A stretch of DNA of 64,000 nt from Marinimicrobium hydrolyticum (lineage in GTDB: Bacteria > Pseudomonadota > Gammaproteobacteria > Pseudomonadales > Cellvibrionaceae): assembly GCF_030848505.1 (NCBI RefSeq), contig NZ_JAVDDU010000002.1:62001-126000 (forward strand). The letters are read 5' to 3'. The notes under the pieces are model-generated. The model was not told the DNA's origin and searched no databases. It saw only the letters and a list, made by a program, of their open reading frames with translations. The translations under genes and the position numbers were made by a program. Positions within the stretch are counted from its first letter, which is position 1. Every line of letters begins with the position of its first letter. Positions 18,011 through 60,285 of the stretch are shown here, piece by piece.

Positions 18011-18117
18011 CGGGCCGGGCGGGGTGAGTGTTCAGCAAACGTCGTAAACCCATCCGTGGGGACTGCCCCACAAGATCCCTCTTGTGAGGCTTGCAGAACA
18101 CTCACCCCGCCCGGCCC
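18011..18117 (+). repeat. Hexaloop-hairpin palindromic repeat, copy A
   Basis: Outer arms of 27 bases (18011-18038 and 18091-18117) pair with two mismatches. The core (18039-18090) holds GTGGGG ACTG CCCCAC and CACAAG ATCCCT CTTGTG, two hairpins sharing a few bases. Similarity to copy B (59602-59724) continues outside the arms (GCTTCnTAAGC upstream, TTCTTTTCCG downstream). It fills the 363-base gap upstream of ribA, which otherwise shows nothing recognisable. Confidence 0.8.
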
Positions 18118-45334: not shown

Positions 45335-45441
45335 GGTGGCGGCTGGGGAAGCTATTCCGGAAGCGCGGTAAACACTTCCCTGTGGCTCCCGCGCGTCATC
45401 CATGACGCGAGGGTTCCGGAATAGCTTCCCCAACCCCCACC
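45335..45441 (+). repeat. Hexaloop-hairpin palindromic repeat, copy E
   Basis: Arms of 28 bases (from 45335 and ending 45441; GGGGAAGCTATTCCGGAA paired with its complement) have two mismatches. The core contains GGTAAACACTTCCCTGTGG, then CGCGTC ATCCAT GACGCG, a 6-bp hairpin with hexaloop ATCCAT, and GAGG, in the same order as copy A but with different arms. Confidence 0.75.
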
Positions 45442-45558: not shown

Positions 45559-45642
45559 GCAGGCATTCCCGGACCGTATGCGGCAGGGATGCCGCATCCG
45601 AGCTTACAAGGATGTATTTACAGCGTGTCCGGGTGTGCCTGC
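45559..45642 (-). repeat. Hexaloop-hairpin palindromic repeat, copy F
   Basis: Arms GCAGGCATTCCCGGA and TCCGGGTGTGCCTGC pair with two mismatches. On the minus strand the core reads ACGCTGTAAATACATCC, then ATGCGGC ATCCCT GCCGCAT, a 7-bp hairpin with the family loop. Flanks (GCGGAGAGTGGGGCAG before, CAGCACTTTAACAGAGCT after) resemble copy G. Copies E and F and the REP unit account for most of the 530-base gap 45207-45736. Confidence 0.75.
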
Positions 45643-45680: not shown

Positions 45681-45707
45681 TGGATCCCCGCATTCGCGGG
45701 AATGACG
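45681..45707. repeat. REP-like hairpin repeat, copy 2
   Basis: TGGATCCCCGC ATTC GCGGGAATGACG matches the unit at 7971-7998 with small changes. It lies downstream of rlmB, between copy F and the gene end, where it could also act as a transcript end. Confidence 0.65.
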
Positions 45708-45736
45708 AATGAAGGATGCGCCGAATCAGCGCAAGC

Positions 45737-49398: not shown

Positions 49399-49485
49399 GC
49401 CCAGGTGGTGAAATTGGTAGACACGCTAGCTTCAGGTGCTAGTGGCCGCAAGGCCGTGGAGGTTCAAGTCCTCTCCTGGGCACCA
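49399..49485 (+). tRNA. leu: tRNA-Leu (anticodon CAG)
   Basis: This 87-base gene has an encoded CCA, an acceptor stem GCCCAGG/CCTGGGC, an anticodon stem CTAGC/GCTAG with loop TTCAGGT, a long variable arm (GGCCGCAAGGCC) and a T-loop GTTCAAGTC. CAG reads the major Leu codon CUG. Transcribed alone from its own promoter and ended by the terminator at 49495-49520. Confidence 0.96.
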
Positions 49486-49534
49486 TATTTAGGAAGCCGA
49501 GCAAACGCTCGGCTTTTTTTATGTCTGCCCACTC
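49484..49534 (+). repeat. 51-base direct repeat, copy 1 (tRNA end plus terminator)
   Basis: This runs from the last two bases of the tRNA through its terminator, an 8-bp stem AGCCGAGC/GCTCGGCT with loop AAAC and seven T (49495-49520). It is identical to 49669-49719; the likeness reaches a few bases further into the tRNA 3' end (TCCTGGGC). Confidence 0.9.
49495..49520 (+). terminator. Terminator of tRNA-Leu(CAG)
   Basis: AGCCGAGC AAAC GCTCGGCT followed by a T-run, ten bases past the tRNA CCA end. Confidence 0.9.
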
Positions 49535-49559
49535 GAGGACCGAGGTCCTCTACCGCTTC

Positions 49560-49655
49560 GCGCATCCATGCGCTCTCGCGGATCCTGGCGCGTCCGTGCG
49601 CTGGTAGCTCTCCGCGCATCCATGCGCTCCCGAGCATCCTGGCGCTTCCATGCGC
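49560..49655. repeat. Four tandem 27-base hairpin units
   Basis: Palindromes at 49560 (GCGCATCCATGCGC), 49588 (GCGCGTCCGTGCGC), 49614 (GCGCATCCATGCGC) and 49642 (GCGCTTCCATGCGC) recur every 26-28 bases, forming two 54-base higher-order repeats. Each is a 4-bp GCGC stem with a hexaloop of the ATCCAT kind seen in repeat copy E. Confidence 0.75.
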
Positions 49656-49668
49656 CTGGTCCTGGGCC

Positions 49669-49719
49669 CATATTTAGGAAGCCGAGCAAACGCTCGGCTT
49701 TTTTTATGTCTGCCCACTC
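49669..49719 (+). repeat. 51-base direct repeat, copy 2 (orphan terminator)
   Basis: An exact copy of 49484-49534, including a complete terminator (49680-49705), but with no tRNA in front. The preceding TCCTGGGCCCA is a near copy of the tRNA end TCCTGGGCACCA. It is a remnant of a duplicated tRNA unit or an attachment-site duplication. Confidence 0.9.
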
Positions 49720-49797
49720 AAGAACCGACACTGTTTCTAGGCTTGCGACGACCGAATTGACTCATGTCCGAGGTTTCCGGAATGGTACTGCGGAGAG

Positions 49798-59574: not shown

Positions 59575-59601
59575 GCCGGAATAGCTTCGTAAGCAAGCCC
59601 A

Positions 59602-59724
59602 AGGGCCGCGCAGGGTGAGTATTCAGCAAACGTCGTAAACCCCTCCCTGGGGACTGCCTCACCGGAGCGCCGGCCGAAAGGTCCCTCTTTTGAGGCTTGC
59701 TGAACACTCACCCTGCACGGCCCT
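59602..59724 (+). repeat. Hexaloop-hairpin palindromic repeat, copy B
   Basis: The 28-base arms (59602-59629, 59697-59724) pair with two mismatches and resemble those of copy A. The core has CGTCGTAAACCCCTCCCTGG, an extra GC-rich insertion (ACCGGAGCGCCGGCCG), and AAAG GTCCCT CTTT. Confidence 0.8.
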
Positions 59725-59820
59725 GGCAGCCCCAACTACCGAGTTCTTTTCCGTAAGCCGCCCTCATAACAGGAGTTTGGGGGCGTAAGAATGCCTTAGT
59801 TGGGGCTGCAAAGGTGATTT

Positions 59821-59908
59821 GCAGGAGGCATTTCGAAACTCTCAAAAGAGGGATCTTTTGGGAGAGCCCCCAGGGAAGGGTTTACGGCGTTTTCGAAATG
59901 CCTCCTGC
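59821..59908 (-). repeat. Hexaloop-hairpin palindromic repeat, copy C
   Basis: Perfect 18-base arms, GCAGGAGGCATTTCGAAA and its complement, are unrelated to those of A and B. On the minus strand the core is CGCCGTAAACCCTTCCCTGG, then CAAAAG ATCCCT CTTTTG. Confidence 0.82.
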
Positions 59909-60098
59909 GAAGCGCCTTGGATTACCTTACGAAGCACATCACCTGAAACTGCGTTTTTCGAGTCTCTGGCAGTCAGAGTACTATTTGAGACCGCGCAAAT
60001 TGTGGCGCTGCACTTATTTTCCTCAAATTATTCCGGACAGCAGTGCGCGAAGACGGGAATCCAAGGTAAGAATGAGTTACTTTCGGCTAGGTAGACGA

Positions 60099-60285
60099 TT
60101 CGCAGAAGGCTTTTCGAAACTCTCGCAAGAGGGATCTTGCGGCCGGCGCCCCGGTGGGAGAGCCCCCACGGACGACTCACAGGGACGTGAGGAGTGTCCC
60201 GAAGCGCCGGGAGCGCGTAGGGACGAGGTCCACGACGTTTGCTGAACACTCACCCTGCACGACCCGAGGGATCACTTACGAAGCT
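60099..60285 (-). repeat. Hexaloop-hairpin repeat, composite copy D
   Basis: The left arm (GCAGAAGGCTTTTCGAAA) matches copy C, while the right arm (GCTGAACACTCACCCTGCACG) matches copy B, so the ends do not pair with each other. Two core hairpins are present on the minus strand, CGCAAG ATCCCT CTTGCG and TCAC GTCCCT GTGA. It looks like two elements fused by recombination. B, C and D together occupy much of the 794-base gap 59575-60368. Confidence 0.7.

Follow-up and report, generated by a model that had tools for sequence, protein, structure and literature searches.

The repeat copies scattered over a 64,000-nt stretch of the Marinimicrobium hydrolyticum genome (positions 62,001–126,000 of contig NZ_JAVDDU010000002.1, assembly GCF_030848505.1; hereafter, the window) belong to a dispersed repeat that is non-coding and of the same kind as YPAL/RU-2 and TwoAYGGAY. 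The strand with GGA in its loops (the GGA strand, the complement being the TCC strand) folds as an outer stem with two hairpins, and the pairing is conserved on that strand. On balance, we lean slightly towards the reading that an RNA from the GGA strand carries paired putative CsrA/RsmA sites, with the copies serving as scattered decoys or 3'-end elements. New elements of this picture are the joining of three existing names, the spread across Gammaproteobacteria, the strand-specific selection, and the inverted composites.

A covariance model, R1, was built from 39 non-redundant copies of the same genome and calibrated. In the window, it gave seven matches, one of which (part of copy D) was very weak. 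The copies and associated features are as follows:

18011–18116, minus strand (GGA strand): copy A, arm family 1; R1 match 18023–18106, 87.4 bits
45335–45441, minus strand: copy E, arm family 4, left partner of the E/F inverted pair; R1 match 45347–45429, 81.5 bits
45552–45650, plus strand: copy F, arm family 3, right partner of E/F; R1 match 45559–45642, 91.7 bits
49802–49883, plus strand: degenerate extra copy missing from the first-pass annotation; R1 44.9 bits, E 1e-10
59585–59593, plus strand: outer inverted terminal repeat CTTCGTAAG of composite B/C, a similarity boundary among family 2-1 composites
59602–59724, minus strand: copy B, arm family 1; R1 match 59614–59712, 65.8 bits
59731–59809, no strand: spacer palindrome between B and C (CAGCCCCAACTA ... 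TAGTTGGGGCTG), from the sequence and the composite alignment
59813–59917, plus strand: copy C, arm family 2; R1 match 59823–59906, 91.1 bits
59928–59936, plus strand: outer inverted terminal repeat CTTACGAAG of composite B/C, from the sequence and the family 2-1 composite comparison
60099–60268, plus strand: copy D, chimera; weak R1 match 60105–60167, E 0.35

The GGA strand is the minus strand in copies A, B, and E and the plus strand in C and F. Since B/C and E/F are inverted pairs, each pair has its TCC loops on the plus strand in one partner and on the minus strand in the other. The R1 search recovered copies A, B, C, E, and F as the first-pass annotation had described them, with E-values from 1e-24 to 6e-17. 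Copy D, also counted there as a member, retains a weak similarity to the family: it combines a C-type left arm with a B-type right arm and extra GGA hairpins, and folds no better than its own shuffles (z −0.48). Copy C folds into a three-way junction at −61.4 kcal/mol (z −8.06 against shuffles), and hairpin 2 of copy B carries a 15-base insertion. The window has 5 hairpins that combine an NTCCNT loop with 6 bp or more of perfect stem, compared with approximately 0.15 in dinucleotide shuffles; with stems of at least 4 bp, the numbers are 11 and approximately 2.25. A search of the whole window at Rfam gathering thresholds returned nothing but one tRNA.

Separately from these copies, the terminator after tRNA-Leu(CAG) is duplicated at 49474–49720 as nearly identical copies of ~60 bp. 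They flank a 129-base array whose minus strand forms four ANGGAN hairpins (GCGC ATGGAT GCGC-like) and which has further GGA motifs (fold z −2.55). This array may represent a further CsrA-type element or an insertion target that was duplicated.

The unit (~105 bp here) consists of a long outer stem around two hairpins, joined in a three-way junction. On the GGA strand, the order is a 5' outer arm of approximately 23–33 bases, hairpin 2, a linker, hairpin 1, and the 3' outer arm. Hairpin 1 comprises a 3-bp stem with an ANGGAN loop, a UUYAC bulge on one side, and a short stem at its base, and the loop of hairpin 2 is ANGGAN or AGGAN. Only one hairpin per unit had been noted previously, along with a separate "GTAAA...TCC...GG motif"; this motif is itself hairpin 1, seen on the TCC strand as a GTAAA bulge, a 3-bp stem (TAC/CCC/CAC/TCC), and the same six-base loop as in the other hairpin. 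The loop had been given as RTCCCT or ATCCAT in every copy. A six-base TCC loop is indeed present, but the rule is wider, namely, NTCCNT, with a five-base NTCCT variant in the second loop.

Covariation was assessed against shuffled and slid partner columns. In the 39-sequence alignment, 27 of 31 pairs show compensatory changes, and 91.8% of cells are paired, compared with 38–43% when the partners are slid. Over the whole structure, 398 double-changed cells were counted versus 48–83 after a slide of 1–3 columns. The outer stem is paired in 98.2% of cells, with 14 of its 16 pairs changed on both sides. These values bear out the initial observation that stems and outer arms vary while staying complementary. 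In four copies of the M. hydrolyticum genome (L015, L024, L038, and L046), hairpin 2 contains a further repeat of ~80–85 bp (CCGCAAGCGG...CAAAGCAGTGCTTTGC...TTGCCTCACCC); the host units belong to three different arm families, as if hairpin 2 had been targeted.

Read on the opposite strand, the "TCC" loops are A(N)GGAN, mostly closed by C-G, which is the CsrA/RsmA consensus. CsrA/RsmE proteins contact the conserved A and GGA of a six-base loop with variable N letters on a short stem; the SELEX consensus is RUACARGGAUGU with an ANGGAN hexaloop, and the CsrB repeat is CAGGA(U/A/C)G (PMC7652899). Among the model-found copies, hairpin 1 is C-ANGGAN-G in nearly all, and hairpin 2 is ANGGAN or C-AGGA(A/C/U)-G, mostly with C-G closing, so that the paired, C-G-closed ANGGAN or CAGGA(U/A/C)G loops of a CsrA/RsmA-binding RNA are present at the sequence level. 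Comparisons within three arm families gave 0 changes among 344 A.GGA letters, while the loop N letters are changed in 39.5% (hairpin 1) and 11.6% (hairpin 2) and the arms in 2.7%. The conservation of the hairpin-1 loop is partly ascertained because its pattern was used in the first search; hairpin 2 and the model-found copies are free of this effect. CsrA does not account for the invariant AC of the UUYAC bulge.

According to the favored reading, the working molecule would be an RNA transcribed from the GGA strand, and its two A(N)GGAN loops, 23 nt apart, would present a site pair that a single CsrA dimer could bind. The long outer stem would protect the RNA and keep both small hairpins from misfolding, and the copies may act as scattered CsrA/RsmA-binding stem-loops, either small decoys or 3'-end elements. 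The M. hydrolyticum genome has one csrA. The gene is near universal (38 of 40 genomes with the element and 37 of 40 without it), so its co-occurrence is uninformative; it was not found in G212, a 98% complete genome that carries copies. In one relative with 74 copies (G004), nine CsrA-family matches were observed, versus one to four in most other genomes.

Selection on folded structure, as proposed in the first-pass annotation, is supported and can be stated more sharply, since both mismatches and folding energies confine it to one strand. With every mismatch weighed equally, the outer arms on the GGA strand have a G.U:A.C ratio of 118:4 in the M. hydrolyticum genome; the ratio was 35:2 for relatives, 67:12 for a diverse set of gammaproteobacteria, and 40:5 for a further group of genomes. 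On the TCC strand, the two counts swap. As the copies of any one genome are related, they do not count as independent, and the diverse gammaproteobacterial set is therefore the fairer test. Among the 175 copies outside the M. hydrolyticum genome, 78 have more G.U and 7 have more A.C. In 274 of 303 copies (~90%; RNA energies, with a few M. hydrolyticum copies counted twice), the GGA strand is the more stable of the two, and strand-specific folding holds with DNA energies too. Because the G.U excess exists only on the GGA strand, one single strand is kept folded. Solo copies are balanced in orientation relative to tandem neighboring genes (5:4 and 14:13). Thus, the GGA strand is not maintained by read-through from host genes, and this balance also argues against a transcription-linked mutational cause.

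A more general mutational origin of the complementarity, by quasi-palindrome correction through template switching or by local gene conversion instead of selection, would fit the long, near-perfect, family-specific arms. Between family 2-1 composites, hairpin cores are 93–96% identical and the intervening spacer 67%, which means that the cores are either constrained or locally converted, and the core identity could reflect gene conversion. Such correction is, however, strand-symmetric and predicts no G.U excess, contrary to the four ratios above; the excess persists although solo copies lie in both gene orientations, and the invariance of A.GGA beside 40% change at loop N letters is left unexplained. 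As the excess holds in the independent genomes sampled, this process is refuted as the sole cause, and we regard it as very improbable overall.

In the M. hydrolyticum genome (3.99 Mb), R1 detected at least 149 copies; the first-hairpin pattern gave 64 matches genome-wide, with 0 for the reversed control. Few copies lie within long ORFs. Copies less than 600 bp apart are ordered minus then plus in 41 of 44 pairs, and, as read from the copy listing, so are most pairs of G029 and G303. The two units of a pair come from different arm families, in combinations that recur, and their differing arms would stop them from pairing with each other. The family 2-1 composites, B/C included, are bounded by CTTCGTAAG ... 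CTTACGAAG. The element may spread alone or as an inverted pair, by means of a mobiliser.

These pairs bring in another explanation, in which the folded strand is a DNA end hairpin for a single-strand transposase or recombinase (cf. attC and IS200/REP ends) and only foldable copies move. G.T is the best tolerated mismatch in DNA, and this tolerance, together with the strand-specific folding under DNA energies, would suit such a hairpin. The minus-plus order of close neighbors, the inverted terminal repeats, and the patchy distribution point the same way, as does the account of RU-2/YPAL as a mobile MITE in PMC2229807. Nevertheless, the REP-type transposase-like enzyme suggested in the first-pass annotation found no support: Y1_Tnp/RAYT (PF01797) had no match in the M. 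hydrolyticum genome, while 5 of 14 control genomes matched, and no transposase was found between paired copies in the loci checked. G008 contains plus-minus pairs, the match of both loops to the CsrA contact pattern is left unexplained, and the cores, kept despite the 67% spacer identity, make the copies look constrained long after any move. We therefore consider this explanation unlikely, though worth keeping in view.

Other signs of mobility were sought around the copies. YPAL/RU-2 is marked by target-site duplications of 3–26 bp and by empty sites in close relatives; here, no consistent duplication was found at the family 2-1 borders, and copy strands read by eye in G008 and G029 gave no clear pattern of replichore orientation. 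The 3' side of rlmB is without the element in nine relatives, with the gene order differing at least in the nearest one; an empty site at E/F was rejected because gene order is not conserved in the nearest relative. An autonomous parent element between distant minus-plus pairs was also rejected, since the intervening genes, assigned from sequence as aroA, fatty-acid desaturase, LysR regulator, and urease, look ordinary. A cassette array in G114 was considered for five same-strand copies, but they lie between ordinary-looking genes. The palindromic repeat GGATCCCCGCATTCGCGGGAATGACG (window 45683–45710) and its relatives with GGACAGCAGTGCGC often border composites and are possibly insertion targets.

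The setting of the copies among genes bears on a third alternative, in which the units serve at mRNA 3' ends as stabilisers or as targets of RNase, a role suggested for YPAL, ERIC, and NEMIS, and the GGA loops serve a protein other than CsrA. Copies between genes lie in 23 convergent and 6 divergent intervals, against an intergenic baseline of 11 convergent and 31 divergent; this enrichment and the very stable fold are what a 3'-end role would predict. YPAL is reportedly co-expressed with upstream genes and possibly affects transcript stability (PMC2229807). The units have no strand preference relative to neighboring genes, however, and stability alone does not require an invariant A.GGA, making a role confined to 3' ends improbable in our estimation. 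In three Marinobacter loci (L188, L203, and L210), units in or beside operons form open frames with recurring peptides, e.g., MDGGAERTGRYSQRVSEK, and resemble the RU-2 open frame described in Yersinia.

R1-type matches were detected in 19 of 38 relatives (M. hydrolyticum included) and, at the level of the class, in 36 of 204 genomes; a phylum-wide sample of 150 genomes had 12 carriers, all from that same class. Copy number is patchy, from one to more than 149 per genome. An exact-pattern scan of named genomes gave at least 120 stretches. Among the matches listed with a lineage name, one is identified no further than proteobacterium and all others are gammaproteobacterial, and carriers among the matches listed include Rheinheimera, Microbulbifer, Marinobacter, Halomonas, Pectobacterium, Luteimonas, Sedimenticola, and others. 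In a viral collection, the exact pattern had only 9 matches. The bolder proposal of a mobile CsrA sponge across Gammaproteobacteria, with a candidate CsrA/RsmA site pair and copies selected to stay intact after insertion, is put forward tentatively and is rather more doubtful than credible to us. If it is true, the copies of a genome, numbering one to more than 149, would tune, or be tuned by, the Csr/Rsm system. The element provides an inexpensive and direct way of testing whether mobile DNA can distribute binding sites of a global RNA regulator over a genome.

Several known systems can be compared with the element. REP/REPIN sequences likewise form intergenic inverted pairs of palindromic units; the present unit is several times longer, has a three-way junction and no GTAG/CGTC tag, and no RAYT gene was found in the M. 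hydrolyticum genome. CsrB, CsrC, RsmY, and RsmZ also have several C-G-closed A(N)GGAN loop hairpins and paired sites, but they are single-locus regulated sRNAs with many sites, whereas the units here are repeats dispersed over the genome, each with two sites and with no promoter known.

No named family had been recognized in the first-pass annotation, but the repeat is of one kind with YPAL/RU-2, Rfam Ysr224, and Rfam TwoAYGGAY. The RU-2/YPAL sequence (Yersinia palindromic sequence, De Gregorio 2006), as printed in Table 1b of PMC2759123, matched copy F in a BLASTN search of the window (81% over 48 bases, E 1.3e-6). Both share the core CGAGCCTACATGGATGTATTTACGGCGT and both GGA hairpins, and the intergenic, multi-copy nature and internal inverted repeats of YPAL/RU-2 are also found in the M. 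hydrolyticum copies. The GGA strand of YPAL/RU-2 folds better as well (−68.1 versus −59.4 kcal/mol). YPAL is a single unit of ~167 bp from Yersinia and Erwinia; here, the units are ~105 bp with many arm families and, unlike YPAL, often form inverted pairs of two arm families bounded by CTTCGTAAG/CTTACGAAG. A CsrA link for YPAL was not found in the literature consulted, in which the account of YPAL comes from two papers later than De Gregorio 2006.

For the TwoAYGGAY RNA (Rfam RF01731, PMC2864571), CsrA binding has been predicted (PMC4333381), so the CsrA idea has a precedent there, and Rfam clan CL00106 holds TwoAYGGAY together with CsrC. No paper tying this proposal to YPAL or Ysr224 was found. 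All 11 TwoAYGGAY matches in the M. hydrolyticum genome fall on R1 copies, on the same strand and in the same register, with best scores of 33.9 bits there and 42.9 bits in G021, below the gathering score of 43 bits. Both elements have two AYGGAY-loop hairpins, a poorly conserved external stem, and, in some families, tandem G.A in one stem. Hairpin 1 differs, being a 3-bp stem with the UUYAC bulge here and a long paired stem in TwoAYGGAY.

Ysr224 (Rfam RF02770), a Yersinia sRNA, is the same element modelled on the opposite (TCC) strand, a choice of strand that speaks against the GGA strand as the working RNA. A Pectobacterium copy (L197) scores 73.3 with Ysr224 (gathering threshold 70) where R1 also matches; in the M. 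hydrolyticum genome, eight sub-threshold matches were found, with copy F giving 31 bits on the other strand, below 70. In PMC9029176, Ysr224 is one of the most abundant annotated sRNAs. It is probably a repeat and not one sRNA, which may explain this high rank and may inflate such sRNA counts. The comparison joins a MITE and an sRNA, both from Yersinia, with a candidate structured RNA, three entries that are treated apart in the literature found.
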